Counted from the first letter of the stretch, positions 35,718 through 54,653 are shown. The stretch: 64,000 bases of DNA from Planctomycetales bacterium (GCA_027449865.1 DAIDKV010000224.1:1-64000), one strand, 5' to 3'. Made by a program: numbers and translations. Notes: generated by a model from the sequence alone, not told the origin.

Positions 35718-37610
35718 ATGTCGAAACGACATTATGGTTTTACACTCATCGAACTTTTGGTCGTGATCACGATCATCTCGGTTTTGATGGCCTTGCTCTT
35801 GCCCGCGGCGCAGGCCGCACGCGAGGCGGCGCGCCGCGCGCAGTGCGCCAACAACCTGAAGCAACTAGGACTGGGCCTCGCCAATTACGAGTCGGCCGAG
35901 AACTGCCTGCCGATTGGCGTGGTCTACGCAGTCAATGGCGTCAGCGGCATGCCTGGTGCGGTCTGCACGTCGCCCTACGGCAACAACTGCCAGAACACGC
36001 CCTGGTTCGTCCTGATGCTGCCGTATCTCGAGCAGGCGCTGCTCTACAACGCCTTCAACGCCTCGATCGGCATTGAAGGGCCTGCCTTGCTCGGCTTTGT
36101 CATCAACAGCACGGTCATGACGTCGAGGATCGCCTCCTTCCAGTGCCCCAGCGATCACATCCAGACTTTCAGCATGGCGGCCGTGAGCAATGCCACCGGC
36201 GGGTTCGTCCCCGCCTATCCCTGGATGGCGTCGAAGGGGAATTACGGCGTCAATTGGGGAAACCTGGATTTTGGCCAGGGCGTGCTCAGTCCGGTCTTGC
36301 CCCGCAACCTGTTTCTTCAGTCGCCGTTCGGCCTCGCCACGACCGGCCTGGGCCCCATCACGATGCGGTCGGCCTCGTTCACGGATGGGACCAGCAATAC
36401 GCACGTCGCCGCGGAGCTGTTGCAAGGGGCGCCCGACGACCTCCGCGGGACGATCTGGGACTGCCACGCGGGTGCTGGTTCCTATATGACGCGATTCGCC
36501 CCGAACGGATATCAGGACCTTCTGCCCATCTGGCTGTCCCTCTCCAACCCTGGGGCCCTGGCGGGCATCAGCGGGGCCCTGGCCTTCGACAACTACGACA
36601 ACATCGGCACGGTCGGTGGTCCTTCGAAACCGGGCTCCAGCCCCCCCAATCCCGGCTCCCTCTGCGACAGCCAGCCCGCCCAGATGCTTGGCTGCAACGA
36701 CCAGGCAACCGATTCGGGCTCGTACGCGGGCACGCGGTCCCGCCACCCCGGTGGGGTCGACGGCCTCTTCGGCGACGGCTCCGTCCACTTCATCAAGAAC
36801 TCGATCAACGGGCCGACCTGGATCCAGCTCGGCTCGATCGACGACGGCGAGGTCATCAGCTCCGATCAGTATGGAAATGGATGTTCAGTTATAAGTCCTG
36901 GCGAGGCGGAAACCGACGAAGGAGGTCCGGTCCGCCGGCACGTCCCCGAGACGGTACGCCGAGCGGACGAACGCCGGAAGACCGGCGAACGTCCCGCCCC
37001 GAAGGAGACGAGGGACATCATCAATTGTTGGACCCACCTTCCCAGGCTGATAGGTCCCGGAACGATCCTGGCACCATTCGAGCACATTGCCCAGCATATC
37101 GAACAAGCCCAGATCGTTCGGGAAAAGGCTGCCACACTTCCAGGCATGGTCTTTACTGTTGGCTTGATATCGTGCATAAGCCTCGAGCAGGTTAATCGAA
37201 AGGCCATAAGATCTGCTGGTCATCGCCCCCGCGCGGCAGGCGTATTCCCATTCCGCCTCGGTGGGGAGGCGGTAGCCGGTGCGCCGCAAGGCATCGGCGG
37301 GGATGGTCATCCCCTTGTCGTACTGCCCCTGCGCGTTGGGCAGGTAGCACCATTGGTCCTTGGGCAGGCCCTCCTGCTCGCTGAGCCAGTTGCAGTAGCC
37401 CGCGGCATGATACCAGGTCACTTGATTCATGGGGCCTTTCGGATCGGGACTGTGCCGGTCGCTCTGAGCGTGATCGACCCCGGGGTTGGCCTGGACGAAC
37501 TCTTGATATTGCTCGACGGTCACCTCCTTGGTCGCGATGGCAAAGCGGTGGGAGATGACCCGGCGATCGGGCGTTTCGTTGTAAGCCCGCTCTGGCTCAT
37601 TCTCAGGTGA
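35718..37610 (+). CDS. DUF1559 prepilin-like protein with aberrant antisense extension
   Basis: The first 385 residues are a normal DUF1559 protein: the type IV pilin-like cleavage and helix [19 protein letters not shown], then [38 protein letters not shown], and the terminal ISSDQY that usually precedes a stop. Here no stop follows. Twelve bases after the TAT codon (36870-36872) the opposite-strand kinase gene ends, and the frame stays open for another 245 codons antisense to it, reaching 37610. A deletion across the intergenic space probably removed the stop. The extended tail (36873-37610) has no protein character. DUF1559 proteins are usually envelope-associated pseudopilins. Confidence 0.85.
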
Positions 37611-40600
37611 GCCCATGAGGAACTCGACCGGGCCCTCGATTTTGGCGAAGGTCTGTCGCCGGCTATTGACGAACCAGCGCCGCTGCCCCGGATCCTTGAG
37701 CTGGCTCAGCTCGGCATCGACGGCCTCGAGGGTGTCGTCTTGCTTCCACTGGCGCAGGACCCATTCGGCTGAGCCGTGGATGCCGGCGTCGGGGTCGTTG
37801 CAATAGAGGTCGAGTAGCCTGGGGATCAGGGGCTGGCGGTCACCGGGGGAGAAGGTATCGGCACCGTAAGTTCCCAGGGCCAGGATCAGGGCGCGGCGGA
37901 CTGAGGTCTCGGGATGGAAGAGGATCTCTTGGGTGGTGGGTGGCAGGTGGAGGGTGGCGGGAGAATCCAGTCGGGCGAGCTCGCTGGCCACCGTCCGCGG
38001 ATCGGCACCAAGGGGCGGGAGCCAGTTGACGATGAAGCTCCGTAGCCGGGGATCGGCGCTGTGCCGCAACAAGGGCCAGATCCGATCGGCATTGCCCAGC
38101 CGGACCAGGGCGATGGCCGCCCGCGCCTGCCGCTGGGCCAGCCGGTCCCTGGCCTCTTCCGATCCCTCTTCGTTCCCGCTCGCCATGCGCTTGGCGATCT
38201 CCGCCTGGAGCACCGGCAGCACCCCGGCCGCCTGCTGCCGGGCGACCGGAAAGAGGCTGGCATACGCCTTCGGGCCGGCGTCCATGAGCAGATCGGCCAG
38301 CAGACGGGGGTCGTCGCTGGCGTAGTCGATCAGGATGGTGGAGGCAAAGGTCCGCTCACTCTCGAATCGGCCAGTGTCCCGGAAGACTCGCGCCAGGGGA
38401 GCCAGCAGCGGCTTGCGGATCGGTCGCAGGGTCTCGATCAGCGTCGCGTAATCACCGGGGTTCTTGATCGCGGCTCCGAGGAATTGGTCGGTGATCAACG
38501 AAGCGGCGTTGTCCCAGCGGTTCGGGATCTGGGCGAAATCGGTGTTGGCCAGGGCACAGGCCGCGCGAAAGCGTGGCTCCCTGTCGGCTTTGGCATCGTC
38601 CAGCAAGGGCCATAACCGCTGCTCGATGGCCGGATCGTGCTTCCGCAGGATGCCCCAGATCACCGGGAGCTCGGCGGGTGAAGACCCCAGCAGGCGGTCG
38701 TACAAATAGCCGGCCTGGCTTCGGTCGCCGGGCCACAAGGCGAGGTGGGCCAGGCTGGCTCGGAGATGCTGATCGCGGTCATTCTCCGTGCTCGCGAGCA
38801 ATCCCGCCAGGGGACGGCCGGCCCACCGGCGGTAGGTCCGGAGCTGTTCGATCCGGGCCGGGACATCCCGGATATTGGCGGTCCTCAGCGAGTCGATCAG
38901 ATGCGCCTCTTGCAGAGATCCATAGCCCTCAAGGGAGCCCCAGCTCAGCAGGGCGATCAGGATTGCCAGGCCCAGGCCCCGCAAGCCATGTACCCGGGCG
39001 GCCCGCCCCATCATCCGGCGCTGCGGCTCACTCCAATCCTGGCGACGAGTCAGCAGGCGGATGTTGGCCCACTCCAGCACCGAGGGCAGGCGCCTGTTCT
39101 CCGGTTTGTGGTGCCAGAGCGCGGCGCGTTCCGCCAGCCGCAGCTCGGCCCGACCGCGACGGGTCTCACACTGCTTGCGGGTCAGCCAGTCGCGCAACGA
39201 GTGGACCAGGTAGTCGTGGGTGAGCTGATAGTAACGGGTGGGGTGTGGAGTGTGGAGTGTGGAGGGATCGATCGTGGAGCGGGTGGAGGGATCGCTGGTG
39301 GTCAAGCCTCCAGGCGTTTTTCTAGTGCCTTGCGTAGGCCGCTGAGCATCCTGGAGATGCGGTCGGTCAGCGCCAACAGACCATCGAGCTCCGCTTGCTG
39401 GAGCAACGCGACCCTCTGACTCAGCATCAGGCGCGTCTCCAGCTCCATTAGTGATCCCCGTGCGATGCTCAGATGTTTGAGGAACTCCTTCGTGTGATCC
39501 CTCCCCTGACCCTCGGCGATGTTGGCCTGGATGGATGACGCCGCCCGCCGGATCTGGCTCGTCAGGCCGAATAACTCCTCTCTCGGGAAGCCTTTCGTCG
39601 CCTGATAACACTTCTCCGCCAGCTCCATGGCGTACTGCCAAACCTCCAGTTGCCGGTAACTCTGCACAATCATCCGAAATCCCTCCCTCCACCCTCGACC
39701 TTCCACCTTCCACCCCCGAAGGATCGGTCGGCGTGATCAGACGCAGATCGCGGTCGAGAATGCGGACCAGTTCGTCGAAATCGCGCGGCTGATCGGCGTA
39801 GCCTGAGGCCTCGCGCAGCTCGGCCTCCGAGTGCATCTGGCCCTTGATGTCGGCTCCCGTTTGGGGCATCAGCGCTTTCAACACGGCCTGGGCCGCCTTC
39901 TGATGCAGGCGATGCTTGGGGTTGGCCTGCGGAGAGTTGAAGGTCTCTTCGAGGAAGGTCATGCCGACTCCTTCCGTACCGCCGACCTCCTGCAGCGCCG
40001 CGGTGGTCCACGCCTTCCCCTTGACCATCTCGGCGAACAGTGCCAGCCGTACCGAGATCACCCTGCCATCCTGGGCCAGCCCCGCGACGGCCTGGCTCAG
40101 GAAGGATTCCTGCTCCCGGGACCAGTCCCGATGGCGGTCGGGCCATTTCCCGTACGCCCTGCCGAAAGCGGTCAGGACCTTGTGGGCATGCTGAAGATCG
40201 AACAGGTCGACCAGGGCGATATTTGCGTTCGGTTCCAGGTCGATCTCCAGCTCGCGCATGAATCGGCTGGCGGCCAGCCAGAAATCATCCCGGACCAGCA
40301 CGATCGCCTGGAGATGCTCGCCGTCGCACTGCCGCAGGGCGGCAACCAGCTTGGTGTTCTCTTGGCCCTGCTGGGCGAAGAGCCATTGCTCGAACTGGTC
40401 GAGCACCAGGAGCACCTTCTGGCCCGGGCGGAGCGTCCGCCCCCGCCGCAGCGCGGCCAGGGCCTCCACCAGGCCCAACTCGGGGCTCAGCTCCGGAGCC
40501 GCCTTGCGCACCCCTTTGAGCAGCCGGGCCTCGGTCTCCGCCGCGGTCGCCTCGATGTAGACCGTCCGCACCTCCTGGCTCAGCCGGGGAAGCAACCCCG

Positions 40601-42044
40601 CCTTCACCAGCGACGACTTGCCGCAACCCGAGGGACCATAGATCAGACCGACCCGGAAGCTGGAATCCGCGTCGATCGACTCAATCCGGGTCTTCCAGAA
40701 CCGAAGACTCTCGGGCAGGCCATCGCGATCGCGCGGGCCGGGCAGGAGCTCCAGGAAGAAGTGGGCATCGTGCTGGTCGAACGACCGCAGTCCCTTGGGG
40801 ATGATCGGGACCGGTTCCACCGAGGACGGATCCTGGGCGGAGCCAGGCGGTGGGTTGACCGGGCCCGGAGTGGAGGCGGACAGGCCGGCCGCCGCCTCGG
40901 TGTGAAGGAAGAGTCGCAGGTCCTCGGCCAGATCCCGCGCCGTGGTGTACCGCTCCGACGCACGCTTCGCCATCGCCTTCTGGCAGATCCGTTCCAGCTC
41001 CCGGGGGATCGTGTCGTCGATCTGCCGAGGGGGACGGGGTTCCAGGGTGGCGACCTGATCCATGATCTCGGTATGCGAATTGCCCCGAAACGGACGACGT
41101 CCCGTGAGCAGCTCATAGAAAACAACGCCCAGGCTGAAGAGATCCGAGCGGCCATCGACCAGGTGGCCCTCGCCCCGGGCCTGCTCGGGGCTCATGTAGG
41201 CCGGAGTTCCGGCTTGCCGCGCTTCCTTACCAGAGTCCTCCTCCCTCAGCACCAGCCCGAAGTCGACGACGACCGGCCTGTCCGTCGAGTCGAGCAAGAT
41301 ATTGGCGGGCTTGATGTCGCGGTGGACCAGGTCCCGCGTATGGGCGTAATGCAGCGCCTCGGCGACCGTCGCCACCAGCTCGGCCGAGTTTCCAAAGGAC
41401 ATTCGACCCTGACCGAGCCGGTCGGCCAGGTTGGTACCCTCGATGTACCTGGAGACCACGTAACACAGGCCGGCCTCGGTCTGGCCCACGTCGTAGACGG
41501 GCACGATGTGGGGATGGTCGAGCTGGGCGAGGACCTGGGCCTCGGCCAGGTAGCTCGCGACGTTCTCGGGGCCGGCGACCCTCTCTGGGTTGGGCACCTT
41601 GATCGCGACCGGCCGGCGGAGCGCGTCGTCCTGAGCCAGGTAGACCGTTCCGAACCCGCCTCGACCCAGCAGCCGAATGACCCGGTAGCGGCCGATGGTC
41701 GCGGGAAGGCCGCCGCTGACTTCCTCGGAGTCGAGTCGCTCGACCTCACGTCGCTCCACCGCGGGCTGGGCCAGGAACTCCATTGCCTGGGGATGGGCGA
41801 TCAGGAGCCGCTCCACGCGAAGGCGCAAGCTCGCGTTGTCGCCGCAGGCACGAGCCAGGTAATCGGCTCGCGCCGCTGCCGTTTTCTCGTTCAGCGCGGC
41901 AAAGAAGATCGCTTCGACCTGCGACGGAGTGTACGGCGAGCCCCTGATACCAGAGAGGTTGTTCGCTTCATCCGAGGAGCGACCTGAGCCCTTAACGGGC
42001 CCTCCTGAGCCTTCGGCCTCGGACACGTTCGTTGTCTCGTCCAT
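36885..42044 (-). CDS. giant Ser/Thr kinase / nSTAND-like NTPase / HEAT / FGE-sulfatase protein
   Basis: The protein has 1719 residues. The order is: N-terminal helical region; kinase (about 119-380) with [13 protein letters not shown], Lys149, [11 protein letters not shown] and DFG intact; NTPase with [17 protein letters not shown] (P-loop near 470) and [13 protein letters not shown]; an interruption of about 157 residues encoded by an inserted element (about 777-933); [17 protein letters not shown]; one membrane helix (about 1015-1035); HEAT-like repeats; and a C-terminal formylglycine-generating-enzyme-like domain ([35 protein letters not shown]). ATG 42044 has AGGA upstream. It resembles planctomycete multidomain signalling proteins. 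The insertion lies in a linker, so the protein could still fold. Confidence 0.92.
39243..39714 (-). mobile_element. S23/IVP-like insertion element inside the giant kinase gene
   Basis: The segment separates [10 protein letters not shown] from [12 protein letters not shown], which are contiguous in related proteins by recollection. On the plus strand its left end has three GTGTGGA heptamers (39243-39263) and GGGTGGAGGG (39281-39290). The right end has CCCTCCACCC (39685-39694) and four heptamers, CTCCACC, CTCGACC, TTCCACC, TTCCACC (39687-39714). The arms are inverted complements over 10 perfect bases. Between them lies one complete gene. No target-site duplication was identified, so exact ends are approximate. 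Confidence 0.7.
39302..39673 (-). CDS. four-helix-bundle protein, S23/IVP (23S rRNA intervening-sequence) family
   Basis: The protein has 123 residues and starts [20 protein letters not shown], with [40 protein letters not shown] and a C-terminal amphipathic helix. These are the hallmark segments of the small basic S23/IVP family, related to Avd of diversity-generating retroelements. A strong Shine-Dalgarno (GGAGGGAGGG) lies seven bases before the ATG, within the flanking inverted repeat. It is read on the same strand as the kinase but in a different frame, and both frames remain open. Its function is unknown; RNA or DNA binding is family-based inference. Confidence 0.9.
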   Translation of the reverse strand: MIVQSYRQLEVWQYAMELAEKCYQATKGFPREELFGLTSQIRRAASSIQANIAEGQGRDHTKEFLKHLSIARGSLMELETRLMLSQRVALLQQAELDGLLALTDRISRMLSGLRKALEKRLEA

Positions 42045-42806
42045 CGTTCGGTCCTGCAAGCCGACCAGTCTCCCTTCCGGAACAGACTCTCAGCGTAGCG
42101 AAGTCATTGGTCCTGGGCGAGGGCGTGGGTCCATCCCGACGAACCGCAACGACCGCGGGCGGAGTTCCGGATTGCGAGAACGCGGGTGGAGAAATCCAAC
42201 GATCGGGCGGAACCCACACGCGGCAAGCACGCGGGGTTGAGTTGATCCCCCGAATGGTTTCTGGCCCTGGTCGTCCTGGAAGCGGCACGAAGTAACGGCG
42301 AACTCGACGCCTGGCGATGGGATTGCGCGTTGCCCGAGCGGGTGTTGCCAGAACGCAAGGACAGGTCAGCCTGATCGTGGGGCTGGCGCATCAACGGGCG
42401 AGCGCCGAGAAATATTCGTGAGCCGTGAGGGGTTTGTCGCGGATTCCTCGCATTGAGGACAGACAGCGACAGTGCCCGCATCAGCCGTTGGTGTTCGAGG
42501 GCCGGAGAAACCCAGGGCGATGGATGCAAGTCGATCGATACCGGGTCGCCGCCGATGTGCCGGGCTTCACCCCGAAGCCGCGACCTCGACGGAAATCTCA
42601 CCTTGGTAGGCCGTCGCTGGTGCGCGAGACCGCCATGTTCGGCCAGCAAGGGGAGCATACCGTTCGTGACGACATGAAAGCTGTTTTTTTAACGACTCGA
42701 TTGTGATCGTCGGTGAGTCTTGCCGGAGCGAGCCTGTCACGCTCCCCCCGGCAACCATCCGCTCCGTCCCATTCCCGGGGCACCTCTCGACAGCGAAGGA
42801 CGTGCC
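42045..42806. other. intergenic region of about 760 bp
   Basis: No gene is supported. Several open frames occur (minus 42104-42658, plus 42425-42706), but none has family-like residues or ribosome binding sites. Promoters for the kinase and for the WD40 gene must lie here. Confidence 0.45.
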
Positions 42807-44275: not shown

Positions 44276-45181
44276 TCACCCCAGGCGATGCCAATGTCCC
44301 GCCTCGATCGCCTGGGCCGGGTGGTGGGCCGTTCGGACGTGTTCCCGGGCGAGGGCATGAATCACCCGGTGCAAGGCCCGGGGATGCCGGACAGACCGGG
44401 CGAAGCCGCGATGATGGCGAGCACGGGTCGGCATCGGCGTGGTCGAGAAGGCCGATGGCGCGAGCGACGGGGCCTGGCCCTCGTTCGGGGACGGCGTCGA
44501 TGTGGGCGACGTCGCGGAGCCAATCCCGCCGATATTACCGGATGCACCGGGAGTCGGCGCCGTCACGCCACCCGGTGAGGAGCCCGATCCCGTCGTCGTC
44601 AGGTTCGGGATATAATGGTAGATGACACTGATGGTCGCCGCGGTGTCCGTCTGGAACGATCCGGTGGCCTGGCCGGTCGAGGTCGTCCCCTCGGCGTGCC
44701 CGCTAATCGCGACCGGGAGGCGAAAGTGGCCGGTGAACGCGGCCAGTTCGGCGGGGGTGGTCAAAACGGTCGTCTGGGGCGTCGAGTCGCTGGTCACCGA
44801 CGGACCGTTGAGATTCTGCGAAACGGTCGGGATCGTCACCGCAATCGGACCGGTGGGAAGGCCGATGGAAAGGTTCGCCGAGGTCGAACCGGCGACCGTC
44901 GCATTCTGGTTCGCGCCCAAAAACTGCGAGGTGAACGAGCCGGAAGTCACGACGTCGACCTCGGTGAGCGTCCCCATCGCGGGGCTGAAGTAGAGCAAAC
45001 CCTGGGTCGCCAGGGTGGGATTCACTTCGAGATCCGGAAACGTGGCCGTCTGGCTCATCATGGCCGAGGCGGTCAGCAGGCGTCGATCCTCCAGCGCCGA
45101 GGGCGTGGGGACGAGGGCGCGTCGGGCTCGTCGGCAAGACGTGGAGGTATCCAGGAAGGCAAAGATCGCGGGTCGATCCAT
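44276..45181 (-). CDS. secreted choice-of-anchor-like protein (LExR-type leader)
   Basis: The protein has 301 residues. Its N-terminus has ALEDRRLLTAS, a motif seen at the start of many planctomycete secreted proteins. The body (LLYFSPAMGTLTEVDVVTSG, ANLSIGLPTGPIAVTIPTVS, ISVIYHYIP) resembles the beta-rich choice-of-anchor E fold. The C-terminal part is Pro/Ser/Thr-rich, then basic. GAAGGA precedes the ATG. It is a paralogue of the genes at 51910 and 53423. Location is probably cell envelope. Confidence 0.75.
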   Translation of the reverse strand: MDRPAIFAFLDTSTSCRRARRALVPTPSALEDRRLLTASAMMSQTATFPDLEVNPTLATQGLLYFSPAMGTLTEVDVVTSGSFTSQFLGANQNATVAGSTSANLSIGLPTGPIAVTIPTVSQNLNGPSVTSDSTPQTTVLTTPAELAAFTGHFRLPVAISGHAEGTTSTGQATGSFQTDTAATISVIYHYIPNLTTTGSGSSPGGVTAPTPGASGNIGGIGSATSPTSTPSPNEGQAPSLAPSAFSTTPMPTRARHHRGFARSVRHPRALHRVIHALAREHVRTAHHPAQAIEAGHWHRLG

Positions 45182-46625: not shown

Positions 46626-49600
46626 ATGGATATCGCCGTCTCCTTCCCGGCCGAGGGCCGCATCCGATTACAGAGCCGCTACCTCTTCAGCGATCCGACC
46701 GCCGATCACTGCCGAAAGTTCGTCGAGCGACTTCTCGACGCCGATGAGGTCAGCGCCGTCACGATTCGTGGCGAGGGCTACTTCTTCGGGGCCAACGTGG
46801 CCGAGATTCGTTACTGTCCGAAGTCGTACTCCCGGCGCGAGGCCATCGCCGCGATTTATCAGCGGCTCTCCGGTGATCGTCTGGCCAACGGTCACGCGAA
46901 CGGCAACGGCCATCACGCCAACGGAAATGGTCACGCGAACGGCAACGGCCATCACGCCAGCGGCAACGGCCATTCCGCGGCCCGTGTGAAGCCGACCGGC
47001 GAGTCGAGGAGTCGAGGGCTCAAGGACCAGGGAGGTCTGCTGAGCAAGCTGCTGAAGCTGCGGGTTGGGCGTCGGCAGGCCGCGGAGATCGTCCCGAATT
47101 CGGAGTGGAAGCTGCTCCACGAGGCGCCGGGCCGGCTCCGCTTTCAGAACGACAAGCTGCATCGTCGGCGCGAGGTCTGCCAGGCGATCGAGCGCGAGTT
47201 GATGAGCATCCTCGGGATCGACAACTACCGGACCAGCACGCTCACCGGTACGGTCCTGATCCAGTACGACCCGCGGCAGCTCAGCAAGGCCCAGGTGGTC
47301 GAGATTCTTGACTCGGCCCTGGCGCCGATCGAGGTTCCGGCGAAGAAGGACAAGGTCGACCTGCAACTGCCCCTCTGCACGCTCTCGCTCCCGCTCGCGG
47401 CGACGGCGCAGTTCGTGATGCCTCCCTTGATGCCGGTGGCCGCGGGCCTGTTCCTCTACACGTCGATCCCGACGTTCAAGGCCGCGCGTGAGGTGCTCTT
47501 CGAGGAGAAGCGGCTGGGCGTTGATGTGCTCGACGCGATCGTGGTGGTCGGCTGCATCAGCACGTTGCAGGTCTTCCCGGGCTCGGTTCTCTGCTGGTGC
47601 CTGGGCTTCGGCCGGGTGCTGGTGAAGAAGACGCAGGACGATTCGAAGCGATTGCTGCTCAACGCATTCGGCAAGCAGCCGAGGTACGTCTGGCTGTATC
47701 GCGACGGCGTCGAGGTGCAGGTCTCGATGGACCGGCTCCAGGCCGGCGACGTGATCGTCGTGAACACTGGCGAGGTCGTTCCGGTGGACGGATTCATCAA
47801 GGAAGGCATGGCGATGATCGATCAGCACGCCCTCACCGGTGAATCCACGCCGGCCGAGAAGGGGGTGGGCGATCGTGTTTTTGCCTCGACGGTGATGGTC
47901 GCGGGGAAGGTTTTCGTTGAGGTGGAGAAGGCGGGGAACGAGACGGCCTCGGCCAAGATTAGCCAGATTCTCAACGACACGGCCGGCTACAAGCTCACCT
48001 CGCAGCACAAGGGGGAGCGGCTGGCCGACAAGGCGGTGATCCCGACGCTCGCGCTGGCGAGCCTGGGCATGGCGACCCTCGGCCCCGCGGGCGCGGTCGC
48101 GATTCTCAACAGCGACTTCGGCACAGGGATCCGGATGGCGGCCCCGCTGGCGATGCTCTCGTCGCTGGCGCTTTGCGCCCACAAGGGCATTCTGGTGAAG
48201 GATGGCCGGGCGCTCGAATTGATGAACGAGGTCGACACCGTTCTCTTCGACAAGACCGGAACCCTCACCCGCGAGCGTCCCGAGGTCGGCCGCGTGATCG
48301 CCTGCGAGGGCCACGACCCGGCCTCGATCCTTCGTTATGCCGCCGCGGCCGAGGCGAAGTTTGCCCACCCGATCGCCAAGGCGATTCTGCACGCCTTCGA
48401 GGCGACCGGCGATCCGCTTCCGCCGATCGACGACTCACGCTATCACGTCGGCTATGGGATCACCGTGCAGGTCGAGGGGCACACGATCCGGGTCGGCAGC
48501 GCCCGGTTCATGGACCTGGAGAACATCCCGATCACCGACGACGTCAAGCAGGCCCTCGACGAGGCCCATCGCGAGGGCAACACCCTCGTTATGGTCGGCG
48601 TCGACGACCGGCTCGGCGGGGCCCTCGAATTGCAGGCCGCGGTCCGTCCCGAGGTCCGCTCGATCATCGAGGGTCTCCGGAAGCGCGGGATCAAGCACAT
48701 CGCGATCATCTCCGGCGATCACGACGCTCCCACCCGAAAGCTCGCCGAGTCGCTCGGCATGGACCGATACTTCGCCCAGGTTCTCCCGGCCGACAAGGCC
48801 GAATATGTCGAGCGGCTTCAGAAGGAGGGGAAGAAGGTCTGCTTCGTCGGCGATGGGATCAACGATTCGATCGCCTTGAAGAAGGCGAACGTCTCGATTT
48901 CGCTTCGAGGTGCCACCTCGATCGCGACCGACACGGCGCACATCGTCTTCATGGAAGAGGGTCTCTCGAAACTGTGCGACCTTCGCGACATCGCCCGCGA
49001 TCTGGACAGGAACGTCAAGCGAAGCTGGCAGTTGATTCTGGCTCCGAATGGGCTCTGCATCGCGGGCGCGTTCACGATGGGCTTCGGCGTGATGACGTCG
49101 GTGTTGACGAACAACGTGGCCGCCCTGGCGGCGCTGGCCAACGGGATGCTCCCGCTCCGCCGGATCGCGCAGGCCCAGGCCGAGAGCCAGCTTGAACAGG
49201 AAAAGCGAGTCGCCGAGGGACTGGCGAACCAGGAGTCAGGCGGCCGGAACGAAACGCTGGGAACCGTGCTGGCCGAGGTCGCGCTGACTGAGGTCGAGGT
49301 GGACGTCGACGATCCCGAGGCGGTTCTGAACGCGATGACCGAGGAGGCGCCGATCGTCCTCCACACGAATCCGTCCGACCCATCGGCGATCGAGATCGAG
49401 ATTGAGCGGGAGCCGACGATTCCCGAGGCCCCGTCGCCGCGATTCGAGCATCTCGGCGAATGCCTGTACGAGCGTCCGTTGAGGCGGCCGATCGACGACG
49501 GAATGAAGCGGGCGATCCTCGACGCGGCCGAGCGTCGGAGCGACCAGCTCCCGTTCCAGGCCGGGTTTCGATGGCACTCGGCCGAGCCGGTGTTGATGTT

Positions 49601-49757
49601 CCAGTCGAACCTGCTGCCCCTCTCGGCGGTCTTCGCCTCGGGACGGCTGGCGATCCACGCGAAGCTCTCGATGGCCACGCGGATGCTCGTGACCGAGGGG
49701 AATCGCCGCCGGGCGATCCGGTTCATCGAGGAGATCGCCGATGAACTCGACCTTTGA
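46626..49757 (+). CDS. P1B-like heavy-metal P-type ATPase with His/Asn-rich segment
   Basis: The protein has about 1043 residues. An N-terminal HMA-like domain (about 1-75) is followed by a Gly/Asn/His-rich spacer (about 86-116), a second HMA-like domain beginning LHEAPGRLRFQ, membrane helices, TGES (about 403-406), the phosphorylated Asp542 in FDKTGTLTRERP and GDGIND (742-747). The usual CPx metal motif in the core helix is replaced by NSDFGTG. A C-terminal domain (about 960-1043) is extra. It is complete and probably active, but the metal cannot be predicted. It overlaps the next gene by 17 bases. Confidence 0.9.
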   Translation: MDIAVSFPAEGRIRLQSRYLFSDPTADHCRKFVERLLDADEVSAVTIRGEGYFFGANVAEIRYCPKSYSRREAIAAIYQRLSGDRLANGHANGNGHHANGNGHANGNGHHASGNGHSAARVKPTGESRSRGLKDQGGLLSKLLKLRVGRRQAAEIVPNSEWKLLHEAPGRLRFQNDKLHRRREVCQAIERELMSILGIDNYRTSTLTGTVLIQYDPRQLSKAQVVEILDSALAPIEVPAKKDKVDLQLPLCTLSLPLAATAQFVMPPLMPVAAGLFLYTSIPTFKAAREVLFEEKRLGVDVLDAIVVVGCISTLQVFPGSVLCWCLGFGRVLVKKTQDDSKRLLLNAFGKQPRYVWLYRDGVEVQVSMDRLQAGDVIVVNTGEVVPVDGFIKEGMAMIDQHALTGESTPAEKGVGDRVFASTVMVAGKVFVEVEKAGNETASAKISQILNDTAGYKLTSQHKGERLADKAVIPTLALASLGMATLGPAGAVAILNSDFGTGIRMAAPLAMLSSLALCAHKGILVKDGRALELMNEVDTVLFDKTGTLTRERPEVGRVIACEGHDPASILRYAAAAEAKFAHPIAKAILHAFEATGDPLPPIDDSRYHVGYGITVQVEGHTIRVGSARFMDLENIPITDDVKQALDEAHREGNTLVMVGVDDRLGGALELQAAVRPEVRSIIEGLRKRGIKHIAIISGDHDAPTRKLAESLGMDRYFAQVLPADKAEYVERLQKEGKKVCFVGDGINDSIALKKANVSISLRGATSIATDTAHIVFMEEGLSKLCDLRDIARDLDRNVKRSWQLILAPNGLCIAGAFTMGFGVMTSVLTNNVAALAALANGMLPLRRIAQAQAESQLEQEKRVAEGLANQESGGRNETLGTVLAEVALTEVEVDVDDPEAVLNAMTEEAPIVLHTNPSDPSAIEIEIEREPTIPEAPSPRFEHLGECLYERPLRRPIDDGMKRAILDAAERRSDQLPFQAGFRWHSAEPVLMFQSNLLPLSAVFASGRLAIHAKLSMATRMLVTEGNRRRAIRFIEEIADELDL
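46891..46959 (+). repeat. in-frame 39-bp-period tandem repeat encoding NGH-rich segment
   Basis: A 30-base unit (46891-46920) recurs exactly at 46930-46959, so the repeat period is 39 bases, or 13 codons. It encodes NGHANGNGHH-type sequence that may bind metal ions or act as a flexible linker. The perfect match suggests recent duplication. Confidence 0.8.
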
Positions 49758-51849
49758 TCGATCGTCGGCGCCCGCGTCGGCCTGGCGGATCGCCAGCGCA
49801 ATCCCGGGACGGCTACGAGTCCGCCACGAGGCGATCCGCGACGCTGGCCGGGCGCACAGGATCGAAGCCGAGATTGCGTCGACGCACGGCGTGATTTCGG
49901 CGCACGCTCGTCCGCTCACGTCGGGGCTTCTGATCCGGTACGACCCCTCGGCGATCGCCGAGCGGCAGTTGCTCCGGATCCTCGAGGAATGGACGGCGCC
50001 GACGGCCGCGAAGGTCGTGGCTCCGGACGATTCGGCGATTCCGCCGGTATCCTTCACGATCGCGAACGGGACGCTCGTACTGGCCGCGGCGGGTGAGCTG
50101 GCGGTGCCGGCGCTATTGCCTCCGACGGCCTTGCTCCTGGTTTTCAACAGCCGGAAGACGCTACGGGAGGCCTGGCGGGAGGCGCGATCGCGGCGGATCG
50201 GGCTGCCGACGCTCTTCGCGACGATCCTGATGGGAACGTTGCTCTCGGGGCAGTTCCTGGCGGCCGCGCTGATGGCCTGGACCTACCAGTTCTGGCGACA
50301 TCGGCACCGGCTGGCGCAGCACCGGCTGCGCCGCGAGTTGCTGCCGTCGATGACCCAGCGATCGAGGTTCGCGCGGCTTTGCGTCGCGGACGCCGAGGTC
50401 GAGGTGCTCGCCGAGCGACTCCGGCCAGGAGACCGGATCGTGGTCGAGGAAGGGGAGATGGTCCCGGCCGACGGCTGGCTGGCCGGCGGCTTCGCGGTGG
50501 TCGACGAGCGTCTGGTTCGTGGTGTGGCGGGGCTCTCGCGGAAGGAAGCCGGCGACCCGATCCACGCCGGCTCGTTTGCCCGGCAGGGACGGCTCTTCGT
50601 CGAGGTCACGGGGCAGGGGGGCGCCAGCCGGGCGCTCCGGCTCGGCCGCGAGCTGGCCGCCGCCGCGACGCCGCCGCCGGCCCCGTTCGCCCTGAATGTC
50701 CACGGTGAGGAGATCGGCCGGAAGGCGGTCGGCCCGACCCTCGCGATCGCCGGGCTGGGCCTGGCGGTCGGCGACCTGGCCGCCGCCGGCGCGATCCTCC
50801 GCCCCGACTACGCGACCGGCCCCGGGCTGGGCGTCTCGCTGGAATCCCTGCGCGACATCGGCGAATCGGCGCGCGAGGGAGTGGTCGTGCGCGATCCCTC
50901 CGCGTTCCGACGGATCGCCGAGGCCGATGTCTTCCTCTTCGACCACGTCCCCACGCTGGGGCGAGAGGGACTGGAAGTGCGCTCCGTCGAACCGCTGGAC
51001 GGCGTCGCCGAGGACGACCTGCTCCGATTGGCGGCCTCTGCGTTCGCCGGTCTGGCCGACGACCGCGCGCCGGCCCTGAGCGCGGCCTGTGCCTCGCGCC
51101 GGATCATCGTTCGCCGGCAGCCGAGAGCCGACTACCGAGGCCCCGAGATCGCCATCGACGACGGCGGCCTTCGGTTGACCTTTCGCGATCGCCCGGCCCG
51201 CTCATCGGCCACGGCGTACGTCGAAACGCCTCCAGAACTTTTGGTCTCCGCCGAGGGGCGTCCCGTCGGCCGGATCGCCTTCGACCGGTCGACTCGCCCG
51301 AAAGCCACCGAGGCCCTGCGCGCCCTCCGCGACCACGGACCAATCGCCATCGGTCTCCTCTCGGGCCGCGCCGAAGCCGAGGCTGGACCGATCGCCGAGG
51401 CACTCGAAGTCGACTTCCACCTGGCGAACCTCGATGCCTCGGGCAAGGTCGAGGCGGTGCGAGCCTGCCGTCGACGCGGGCTGAAGGTCGCCTACATCGG
51501 CGACGGCCAGCGCGATCCCGAAGCCGCCCGCGCCGCGGATGTCGCGATCTCGATCGGCTTCGACGAGCCCGACCCGGCGCGCGACCCCTCCGCGGTGCTG
51601 GTCCTCCGGTCGGACCTGGCCTGGATCGCCGGCCTGCGCGAGCGGTCGCGCGAGCATCTCGCCTGCCTTCGAGCCGTGAATCAATTCGTTCTTATTCCCA
51701 ATCTTTTCTGCATCGCCGGCGCGTTCTTCCTGGGCTTCACCAGTCTTTCCAGCGTGGTGGTGACCAACCTGGGAACGCTCGCCGTCTACACCGGCCTTCC
51801 CAGACGCCGGAAACGGCGGACGAGCGCGATCGATCCGGCCCGGCGCTGA
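49741..51849 (+). CDS. degenerate P-type ATPase paralogue
   Basis: The protein has 702 residues. An HMA-like domain (WRIASAIPGRLRVRHEA) is followed by helices, an actuator-like domain, a core helix with PDYATG (parallel to NSDFGTG in its neighbour) and an HAD-like domain. The catalytic motifs are altered: DKTGT reads DHVPT (Asp401 kept, KTG lost), TGES reads RGVA (260-263), and only GDGxxD (GDGQRD, 587-592) remains. It is therefore unlikely to hydrolyse ATP normally. GAGGAG lies seven bases upstream of the ATG, and the start overlaps the active ATPase by 17 bases. It may form a heteromer with, or regulate, that ATPase. Confidence 0.85.
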   Translation: MNSTFDRSSAPASAWRIASAIPGRLRVRHEAIRDAGRAHRIEAEIASTHGVISAHARPLTSGLLIRYDPSAIAERQLLRILEEWTAPTAAKVVAPDDSAIPPVSFTIANGTLVLAAAGELAVPALLPPTALLLVFNSRKTLREAWREARSRRIGLPTLFATILMGTLLSGQFLAAALMAWTYQFWRHRHRLAQHRLRRELLPSMTQRSRFARLCVADAEVEVLAERLRPGDRIVVEEGEMVPADGWLAGGFAVVDERLVRGVAGLSRKEAGDPIHAGSFARQGRLFVEVTGQGGASRALRLGRELAAAATPPPAPFALNVHGEEIGRKAVGPTLAIAGLGLAVGDLAAAGAILRPDYATGPGLGVSLESLRDIGESAREGVVVRDPSAFRRIAEADVFLFDHVPTLGREGLEVRSVEPLDGVAEDDLLRLAASAFAGLADDRAPALSAACASRRIIVRRQPRADYRGPEIAIDDGGLRLTFRDRPARSSATAYVETPPELLVSAEGRPVGRIAFDRSTRPKATEALRALRDHGPIAIGLLSGRAEAEAGPIAEALEVDFHLANLDASGKVEAVRACRRRGLKVAYIGDGQRDPEAARAADVAISIGFDEPDPARDPSAVLVLRSDLAWIAGLRERSREHLACLRAVNQFVLIPNLFCIAGAFFLGFTSLSSVVVTNLGTLAVYTGLPRRRKRRTSAIDPARR

Positions 51850-51909: not shown

Positions 51910-53100
51910 TCACGAATGATGAGAACGCCGCGTCGCCAATCGCCCGGAGAAATGCACGATGTGTCCATTGCGGACCGGAACAAAATTCCCCTGGTGATCG
52001 TGAAATCCGATCAGCGAATACTTCGATCCGAATCGCTGGCTGACCACGTCGGTATCGCCATTGGAGCAGGGAAGTGTCAGCCTCAGCGTGTCATGGTAAT
52101 GAACGTTGAGCCGGATCGAGGGGCGAAGCGTCACCGAATTCGTGGATGGATTGTAGGTCGCGGAGAGGATCGGGATTCGTCGGCCGTCGCGAGCGATGAC
52201 CAGGTAATCCGATCGGTTGGATGCCCGGGTCGGGTCGACCACGCCCTGAAACGGTACGATCAGCAGCGTCTTTTGCTGATGAACGCCGATCCGGCCGATC
52301 TTGCCGATCGTCGGGCAGGCGACCGCGGGCGACGCCGCCGGGATGTACGTATAGATGATCGCGACAGTTGCCGAGGTCGTCGTCGTGTTGTTCCGGAGCA
52401 GGTTCGAGGAGGGGGACGTCGAGAAGCCCTGGCCTGTCGCGGACATCGTCGGGACGATGGACGACCGGCCCGAAGTGGCCGTGAAGAAGGCGAGGTCGGC
52501 GGGGTTGGTGTACGTGTTCGTCGAGGATTGTTCGAGCCGAAGCTGCGGGAAGTTCACGGTGTCGGTCGAGGAGCCGAGCGGCCCGGCGGTGATCGGCTGG
52601 CTCGAGACCGATCGACTCGGGCCGTTGATCGTCTGGCTCAGGCCGTTGATCTGGTAGTTGCCCGAGAGCGTCGCCGTGATCGACGCCGAGGCGTTCGGAT
52701 CGAGGTTCTGTGCCGAGATGTCGCCGAGGAAGGTCACCGATTGCGCCACCGTCACCGAGGTCAAAGTCCCCAGCGCTGGGTTGAACAGCGCCAGCGAGGG
52801 CGAAAGCGGTTGATTCTGGAAGTTGGTTAGCGTCGGCGCCAGGGTCAGAGTCTGTACCGGGAGCGACTCGGGCGCCGATGCCGCGTCGGAGAGTGCGGCC
52901 GGAGGGTTCGAGAGGGTTGGAGCCTCGCGGTGGGCCTGCCGTACGGCCCTGGCATCCAGGGCCGTACGGCGTGGCGCACCGACGCTCATCAGCGCGATGG
53001 ATTCCATCGCCTCGATCACCGGCGCGAACGCCCTGCGCCGAGGGCTTCCCAGAAACCGGACCGGCCCCGTCCACGACCACCACTTCGAGGTGCGCAACAT
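51910..53100 (-). CDS. secreted choice-of-anchor-like protein
   Basis: The protein has 396 residues. It starts at ATG 53100 after a G-rich site. The N-terminus has a basic stretch and IEAMESIALMS, comparable to the LExR leader motif. The body has LFNPALGTLTSVTVAQSVTF and repeated beta strands, similar to its paralogues at 44276 and 53423. The C-terminal half (IGRIGVHQQKTLLIVPFQG..., DTLRLTLPCSNGDTD) is additional and unidentified. Envelope or extracellular location is likely. Confidence 0.72.
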   Translation of the reverse strand: MLRTSKWWSWTGPVRFLGSPRRRAFAPVIEAMESIALMSVGAPRRTALDARAVRQAHREAPTLSNPPAALSDAASAPESLPVQTLTLAPTLTNFQNQPLSPSLALFNPALGTLTSVTVAQSVTFLGDISAQNLDPNASASITATLSGNYQINGLSQTINGPSRSVSSQPITAGPLGSSTDTVNFPQLRLEQSSTNTYTNPADLAFFTATSGRSSIVPTMSATGQGFSTSPSSNLLRNNTTTTSATVAIIYTYIPAASPAVACPTIGKIGRIGVHQQKTLLIVPFQGVVDPTRASNRSDYLVIARDGRRIPILSATYNPSTNSVTLRPSIRLNVHYHDTLRLTLPCSNGDTDVVSQRFGSKYSLIGFHDHQGNFVPVRNGHIVHFSGRLATRRSHHS

Positions 53101-53422
53101 CGAAGACCCCCGCGTCGTGCCGGCCCCGACGCGACGAGGCGCGGGGCCCGTTTCCTTCGAGGAAAGCGGCTCCCACGGCTCCGCCGAGCGAGCGGCGGGT
53201 CGATTTCCCCTACCTGGGCGGGGACCCGCCTGCATCCCGTCGCCGGCCCTTCGGCCAGCCATCCCCCAGATCCGCCGAGCGACCCGCGCGATCGTCCTCG
53301 GCTCCGGACCAATTCACCCGTTCTCTCCGGGGTTCACACACTTCCTGATATCGGCGTCAGAACTTCCCAGCATGAGAAGGGTTGTGAATCTCTCCCAGAC
53401 TCCAATCGATCCTCTCCTTGCC
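53101..53422. other. intergenic region of about 320 bp
   Basis: The region lies between two minus-strand genes for secreted proteins. No gene is supported. I see no clear promoter or repeat. Confidence 0.4.
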
Positions 53423-54262
53423 TCAGGCCCATCCGTCGCGACCGGCCACCCGGGGCCGCCGCCCGGCCGAAAGCCCCAGCCCCACAACCATCGACATCCC
53501 CAGGCCAAGCAGAACAAACCCCGACGGCTCGGGAACCACCGAGCCGGTCGATATCGTCGTGTAGAGATACTGGACCGTCACCAGGGCGTCCGCCTCGGTC
53601 AGTACGGCCCCGCCGCCATTGCCGCTGTTCGAGTAAAAGCTGGAATGCGCCACCGCCAGAACCGGCAGATCGATCGTCCCAGGACCAATAAACGCCGAGA
53701 GCAGCGCAAGAACCGAACGGTCAATGGTCTGCGAGAGCCGAAAAGTCGCCTGGTCGGGCGCGAGGTAATACGGGTCGGTGATGGCATCCCTGGACGAATA
53801 CGTGCCGGACGACGCCTTCATCGAGACGACGTCGACAGGCATGGTGGTCGCCGGCCCGCCGAAAAGCATCAACCCGGCCGGACCGCCCAGCGCGATCGAG
53901 GGACCATCCGCGAGCTGCTGCGCCAGCGTCAAGTTGGCCAGCACGCCCGGGTCGGGAGCCTCGGTCGTCGCCACATAGAGCGTGGTCGGTGTCGGGGTTG
54001 ACGCAAAATTCAGGAGGAAATCATTGCGGATCGTCGCCGTGAAGGTGAGCTCGACCCCCGTCAGGTTCCCCAGCGTCGGGTCAAACTTCGAGAACGTCAG
54101 CGGACCCCCCAGCGCGGGCATGCCTGACCCGCCGCTCACCGGAGTCATCGCGATCGACCGGCTCTGTACGGCGGTGCCAAGGGTTCCGCCAACCGTGGCC
54201 CGGGGCACGATCGCCCCCGCCACCGTGATCACCAGCGCGCAGGCGAGAATCCTCCCGTTCAT
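53423..54262 (-). CDS. PEP-CTERM choice-of-anchor E-like protein
   Basis: This 279-residue secreted protein has a signal peptide (MNGRILACALVITVAGAIV), a beta-sandwich body with LTFSKFDPTLGNLTGVELTF, and a C-terminal PEP-CTERM anchor (VVPEPSGFVLLGLG, helix, RRPR). GGAGGAGAG lies before the ATG. It is a paralogue of the two neighbours and is predicted to be sorted by an exosortase. Its ligand is unknown. Confidence 0.85.
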   Translation of the reverse strand: MNGRILACALVITVAGAIVPRATVGGTLGTAVQSRSIAMTPVSGGSGMPALGGPLTFSKFDPTLGNLTGVELTFTATIRNDFLLNFASTPTPTTLYVATTEAPDPGVLANLTLAQQLADGPSIALGGPAGLMLFGGPATTMPVDVVSMKASSGTYSSRDAITDPYYLAPDQATFRLSQTIDRSVLALLSAFIGPGTIDLPVLAVAHSSFYSNSGNGGGAVLTEADALVTVQYLYTTISTGSVVPEPSGFVLLGLGMSMVVGLGLSAGRRPRVAGRDGWA

Positions 54263-54653
54263 GGGCTCTCTCCTCCAGGGCTGGCCGACGATGGCCCGCC
54301 GACATCCCCTTCGAATCGGGTACACGCCATCTCCCAGAGATGATCTCGGTCGATGCCAATCCAGGCCGTGCGCAGGGCCCAGCCGCCAGTCAGAGGCGCC
54401 CGGCCTCGTATCGTCATCGGCTGGTGTAGCTAGCAATTTATGTGCCAATAGGCGGAAGAGTTGATAGGCGCAGGCGTGACGTCAGGCGAAGAAGCGAGGA
54501 ATGATCAGGTGAGAGGGGATTTGCCGGACTTCCGGGCGAGATTTGGGGATTCGGGCCTCGCGCGCGGAGAGGTTCCCGGATCCCCAGTTCGGCGAGGCTG
54601 TCTCGGCCTGGAATCGGGGATCCGGGTGCGGATGGTGGGGTGCGACCAGGCGC
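54263..54653. other. intergenic region of about 390 bp
   Basis: No gene supported. A locally AT-rich stretch (54426-54470) around TAGCTAGCAATTTATGTG could hold the promoter for the minus-strand secreted-protein gene. Confidence 0.4.

Follow-up and report, generated by a model that had tools for sequence, protein, structure and literature searches.

A conserved pair of P1B-like ATPases in planctomycetes, one catalytic and one not, proposed to serve one metal-ion transport system

What does a P-type ATPase do once its catalytic residues are gone, and why would it be encoded directly behind an intact relative? This question is raised by two overlapping genes, here called A and B, in a 64,000-nucleotide stretch of DNA from a Planctomycetales bacterium (GCA_027449865.1, DAIDKV010000224.1:1-64000); we refer to the whole stretch as the window, and positions are counted from its first letter. 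Gene A (46626..49757, + strand) encodes an intact P-type ATPase of 1043 amino acids, and gene B (49741..51849, + strand) encodes a non-catalytic paralogue of 702 amino acids. An earlier note on the window, made from its sequence alone, had placed both genes and their 17-base overlap correctly. Comparison across many genomes shows that B lost its catalytic residues once, long ago, and has been kept beside A ever since under purifying selection. We propose, with a probability of roughly 55%, that A and B together supply the two large subunits of a single system for metal-ion transport, in which B is the non-catalytic partner.

The class of A was assigned from profile matches and from its motifs after alignment. 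Its reading frame runs from an ATG at 46626 to a TGA ending at 49757, and the start is credible because relatives open with the same MDI/MDL..FPA..I residues. Pfam families E1-E2_ATPase, Hydrolase and HMA_2 are all matched, and the score against TIGR01525, the family of heavy-metal P-type ATPases, is 406.5 bits (cut-off, 346.25). The closest solved structures are CopA and ZntA. The protein begins with two HMA-like modules separated by a His/Asn/Gly-rich linker, continues with a P1B-like core and ends in a domain that we call C1. An HMA_2-like domain without CxxC lies at approximately 47091..47310 (PF19991; 38.6 bits vs. a cut-off of 30), and C1 occupies approximately 49458..49757, as judged by alignment with free-standing C1 genes; in most relatives, C1 is a gene of its own, encoding about 104 amino acids. 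The aligned motifs of A are TGES, NSDFGTG, DKTGT, HP, GYG, SGD, PADK and GDGIND, with the phosphorylation motif (FDKTGT) at approximately 48247..48264. NSDFGTG (48109..48129) occupies the position of the CPx motif, and no M4 motif of the CPx, SPC or TPC type was found in the alignment of A sequences. The TIGR01525 score and the HP motif of the N domain, present in 48/48 A proteins, place A with the P1B ATPases; since NSDFGTG replaces CPx, SPC or TPC, we call it P1B-like and name no P1B subtype. The linker between the HMA-like modules (NGHANGNGHH..., approximately 46875..46982) has NGH-type counterparts at the same site in many, not all, relatives of A; it may bind metal, or it may be simple low-complexity sequence.

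The frame of B opens with an ATG at 49741, shares its first 17 nucleotides with the end of A and closes with a TGA at 51849; a GGAG lies 7 nucleotides upstream of the ATG. Two Pfam families are matched above their cut-offs, PF00122 (E1-E2_ATPase, 58.4 bits) and PF00702 (Hydrolase, 40.1 bits). The TIGR01525 score is 158.8 bits, below the cut-off of 346, and a profile search with B recovers the structures of CopA and ZntA. An A domain, the remnant of a P domain and a homologous membrane core mark B as a descendant of P-type ATPases, and the Pfam and TIGR01525 matches indicate that A and B are both of P1B-like descent. The earlier note had seen HMA-like domains in both proteins. That of A is secure; that of B (approximately 49787..49974) is divergent and scores 24.6 bits with HMA_2, below the 30-bit Pfam cut-off. 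After alignment, the motifs of B read RGVA, PDYATG, DHVPT, LSGRA, ASGK and GDGQRD, with no HP. The membrane motif (RPDYATG) lies at 50803..50823 and the degenerate phosphorylation motif (FDHVPT) at 50938..50955.

Could these apparent losses be a misreading of the motifs? Multiple alignments of A and B from many genomes (about 48 sequences each), from which the residue counts are drawn, confirmed the motifs, and misreading was rejected; the TGES, DKTGT and GDGIND first read in A were upheld, as were the RGVA and DHVPT first read in B. Among A proteins, the Asp, Thr, Gly and final Thr of DKTGT are present in 48/48 and the Lys in 47/48, along with the Glu of TGES (48/48), the His of HP (48/48) and the Asn of GIND (47/47). 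The features of an active P-type ATPase (DKTGT, TGES, GDGxxD and an N domain) were found in 47–48 of the 48, and A, as its sequence reads, is equipped for a complete P-type cycle. One A protein (genome G109, L112 6693-9464) has DNTGT, with Asn for Lys and the remaining catalytic motifs intact; this may be a sequencing error or a real change. The counts for B are of another order: the Asp of DKTGT is present in 24/48, the Lys in 0/48 and the full motif in none, the Glu of TGES in 1/46, the His of HP in 0/32 and the Asn of GIND in 0/46. Several B lineages have a shortened stretch from the phosphorylation site to where the P domain ends, and their nucleotide-binding (N) domain is gone. The alignments thus indicate that B has no working catalytic site, with ATP binding, phosphorylation and dephosphorylation all lost.

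The B of the window does retain the phosphorylation-site Asp and GDGxxD, as the earlier note had stated. We considered these residues as a clue to residual activity and rejected them as a local accident. All three Asp residues of the DKTGT and GDGxxD sites are kept in only 2/50 B proteins, and the B of a congener, 91% identical, reads DLVPA and GNGRRD. What the family conserves is the loss, and not the residues left over in the window. The membrane motif is conserved as well: the Asp at the CPx position is invariant in A (NSDFGTG, 48/48) and in B (PDYATG or PDFATG, 48/48, with Tyr or Phe in 48/48), and the non-CPx motif that had been noticed in the two window proteins is therefore a trait of both families.

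Is B maintained? In the window's genus, B proteins are 90–91% identical, and the ratio of nonsynonymous to synonymous substitution rates (dN/dS) is 0.158–0.167, vs. 0.092–0.097 for A. Along B, this ratio is 0.03 in the last two helices, approximately 0.10–0.12 in the other membrane parts and about 0.2 in the remnants of the P and N domains. No internal stop was present in any B match from the family, class and widened searches. The low ratios, lowest in the helices, and the unbroken frames argue that B is maintained, its membrane part most strongly.

A tree of 104 proteins gathers all B sequences in one clade (Shimodaira–Hasegawa-like approximate likelihood ratio test support of 100), separate from both A and the CPx ATPases encoded in the window genome. 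This single clade argues that catalysis was lost once in B, before the families diverged; the long branches of B leave its exact sister uncertain, and the tree program warns of long-branch joins. The distance matrices of A and B are correlated (r = 0.75 for 36 pairs; 0/5000 permutations), and B has evolved about 4.4 times as fast as A.

How widely is the pair distributed? A search across planctomycetes found A and B together in about 50 genomes from five families of the window's class, mostly as adjacent genes. Both are present in 30/45 genomes of the window's own family (f1), which is presumably Isosphaeraceae-like; these counts include several draft genomes with one of the genes as a contig-edge fragment. 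Four more families (f2, f3, f14 and f15) came from a sample of 249 genomes of the class, and widened searches found the pair in 12/170 f2 genomes and in further f15 genomes. In about 40 genomes, A and B lie on one contig, either directly adjoining or separated solely by small C genes. At E 1e-60 with the B profile, which gives A proteins 420–520 bits, none of the searched genomes had an A-type ATPase without B; one genome (G761) lacks A and has its B at the edge of a contig. No pair was found outside the class in a phylum sample of 392 genomes, in which the matches were the window genome, one member of its family and four ATPases that stand alone and have an intact DKTGT. Among plasmid-borne relatives, the three whose match to B is widest all carry DKTGT; those of Methylobacterium and Deinococcus have no P-type neighbor, and the Rhodococcus plasmid record is unannotated. 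Chromosomes of other phyla were covered by one peptide-pattern scan alone, which distant relatives could escape; two Planctomycetales metagenome bins were among the relatives that it returned. Given the conserved pair, the purifying selection and the alignments, B is neither a drifting gene unique to this strain nor a product of misread motifs.

Outside the window's genus, the two genes belong to a conserved gene order that we label U1-U2-A-C1-C2-C3-B-D. This operon was previously undescribed and is probably ancestral in these planctomycetes, and it defines several new protein families around the pair. The small products are U1 (about 115 amino acids), U2 (about 88), C1 (104), C2 (about 177), C3 (about 69, with one predicted helix) and D (about 110). 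D is present in one or two copies, often in tandem, and encodes two-helix proteins with LPG..G.P...GG..LWP. Neither U1, U2, C1, C2 nor D matched a Pfam family, C3 gave a sub-threshold FeoC-like match (E 0.003), and none of the six matched DUF1490. A Na/Ca-exchanger gene (PF01699), an EcsC-like gene or a Phenol_MetA_deg-like barrel gene is often present downstream of D. In the window, A has C1 fused to its C-terminus and is followed directly by B; the genes for C2 and C3 are found at another locus of the genome (G000:C182:37873-38358), where they lie behind a younger ATPase, the second dead one. The pairing of A with B has thus been kept in this genus despite the departure of C2-C3. The earlier note had taken coupled translation to fix the ratio of the two products, an idea that the comparison does not support: the 17-nucleotide overlap is confined to the window's genus, and in most relatives A and B are separated by approximately 0.3–1.2 kb that holds as many as three small genes.

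Catalytic loss has also struck the A slot of this operon. The second dead ATPase of the window genome (G000:C182:39083-40234; L079 4502-6559, - strand) adjoins C2 and C3 and degenerated independently of B. The orthologous protein of G014 (L124) has kept its catalytic site intact; intermediate stages are represented by G010 and G019. In the A slot beside C2-C3, with another A present, catalysis has been lost in the window's genus and in G010. The A-slot protein of G614 (L156 5772-7805) has lost DKTGT, TGES and GDGIND. A second copy in the A slot of G222 (L122 7125-9527) reads DKTST and has lost its N domain, which is missing from L122 only and not from L166. The dead A copies of the window's genus have dN/dS values of 0.29–0.45, indicating weaker constraint. 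These losses in the window's genus and G010, in G614 and in G222 argue that non-catalytic P-type ATPases arise repeatedly in this system, which offers a natural series for the study of pseudoenzyme origins.

How might the two proteins work together? In the mechanism that we propose, A would be the energy-using pump, binding ATP, accepting the phosphate at the DKTGT Asp and moving an ion by way of a site centered on DFGTG. B would derive from an early duplication of an A-like pump and would have retained the membrane part, in which D(Y/F)ATG matches the site of A, together with its divergent HMA-like domain. Most likely, B would sit beside A in the membrane and shape, gate or stabilize it, or pass the ion on. 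Because the ligands available in DFGTG and DYATG are Asp, Thr and backbone oxygens, with Cys absent, a harder cation (e.g. Mn, Fe, Mg or Ca) is likelier than Cu or Cd, and the exchanger gene nearby fits such a substrate weakly. A narrower form of the proposal is that an active P1B-like pump forms an obligate heteromer with a dedicated pseudo-ATPase bearing a second membrane ion site (DYATG), in an operon of otherwise uncharacterized proteins whose catalytic subunits have repeatedly been made non-catalytic; we hold this version tentatively, as somewhat short of an even chance.

Several points weigh against a shared transport system. P1B ATPases are generally regarded as acting as monomers. Mirrored trees and adjacency are expected from the vertical descent of any operon and are no proof of contact. 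The AlphaFold model of B, built with four sequences, had a predicted local distance difference test score (pLDDT) of 40 and was unusable. Moreover, the roughly fourfold faster evolution of B and the loss of its P- and N-domain parts could mean that it serves as a sensor or scaffold and is no pump subunit. The contact, the partner role of B, the substrate and the direction of transport are matters on which we infer; of the heteromer of a catalytic and a pseudo-subunit that the earlier note had suggested, the conserved pair under purifying selection stands, and the physical assembly keeps the status of a proposal.

Were B instead to act on its own in the membrane as a metal sensor or regulator, a pseudo-pump receptor, an ion at DYATG would alter its cytoplasmic domains and signal to A, C2 or C3. 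Conservation of the membrane motif while the cytoplasmic domains may shrink agrees with such a role, as do the small operon proteins without a Pfam family and the weak resemblance of one of them to FeoC; B has no signalling domain, however, and in the window's genus it accompanies A and not C2-C3, and we regard a sensor as unlikely, at something over one chance in five. The conserved Asp and helices, kept without catalysis, would equally suit a passive or secondary carrier or channel that gives the ion a path without ATP alongside A. To our knowledge there is no precedent for a P-type fold acting as a channel in vivo without a toxin, and such a role leaves unexplained why every genome with A has B; we consider it improbable. 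A role as chaperone or scaffold, either of A or of a pump cluster, has the same low standing. U1, U2 and C3 bring to mind PacL of mycobacteria (PMC13043812), a type of small membrane protein by which P-type ATPases are gathered, and repeated catalytic-site loss in the A slot would fit, but a polytopic paralogue of 700 amino acids makes a heavy scaffold, and its invariant membrane Asp suggests ion binding.

The two remaining explanations concern B alone. A decaying pseudogene, or a neutral leftover of tandem duplication, would account for the missing catalytic residues and for the faster evolution of B. Drift of this kind was rejected on the dN/dS of 0.16, the intact frames and the deep conservation; it is hard to square with a single ancient origin, with retention in five families and with an invariant membrane motif, it would make the intact B of all sampled species a matter of chance, and we think it very improbable. 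That B is still an ATPase, by way of another residue or motif, is the least credible of all: the Asp and GDGxxD of the window's B would speak for it, but the Asp is found in only half of the family and the Lys in no member, and several members have no N domain. A shared transport system with B as its non-catalytic partner remains the explanation that we favor.

Other genes of the window lie near the pair. Three secreted-looking proteins surround A-B (44276-45181, 51910-53262 and 53423-54448, all on the - strand); they have similar ..P(A/T)(L/M)G(T/N)LT.V.. segments and no Pfam match, and the end of the last resembles PEP-CTERM proteins. Farther upstream, 36885-42059 (- strand) encodes a protein of 1724 amino acids whose sequence reads as a Ser/Thr protein kinase, after which come a putative ATPase module, repeats of HEAT-like type and a C-terminus resembling formylglycine-generating enzyme.

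How does the pair compare with known systems? P-type ATPases are textbook single-polypeptide pumps. If our proposal is true, nature has here separated catalysis from the handling of the ion or from regulation, and one can ask what a P-type membrane domain does without ATP and whether P1B pumps act as heteromers. The age and conservation of the pair add to its interest, and the proposal can be tested. Among the P1B ATPases (TIGR01525; ZntA, CopA), A scores above the family cut-off and both proteins match the CopA and ZntA structures; the pair differs in having DFGTG (A) and DYATG (B) in place of CPx and HMA_2-type domains without CxxC, and B is non-catalytic and far below the cut-off. KdpFABC is a P-type ATPase in a multi-subunit complex from one operon, and an A-B complex, if it forms, would resemble it in this respect; the partner of the Kdp ATPase is a potassium channel-like subunit, whereas that of A is a dead P-type ATPase. 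FUPA family 24 of Chan et al. (2010) is said to join a non-functional type I and a functional type II P-type ATPase in one chain. By that description, it likewise combines a dead with an active P-type ATPase, and it is set apart from A and B, which are two separate genes, both P1B-like, in another phylum. In the PacL/Ctp effluxosomes of Mycobacterium, small membrane proteins encoded with P-type ATPases gather the pumps (PMC13043812); PacL is a small DUF1490 protein and not a pump paralogue, and U2 of the present operon has no Pfam match. A search of the open-access literature turned up no bacterial system in which a pseudo-P-type ATPase is described as a subunit of its own, and a term search of a 2023 review of open P-type ATPase questions (PMC10654040) returned no mention of pseudo-subunits. 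None of FUPA24, KdpFABC and PacL is a separate, conserved, dead P1B-like subunit. A two-part pump with an inactive partner, if A and B form one, has apparently gone undescribed so far. In kind, A and B resemble the pairs of pseudoenzymes and active paralogues, such as pseudokinases and the degenerate half-sites of ABC proteins, in which an active and an inactive homologue are kept together.

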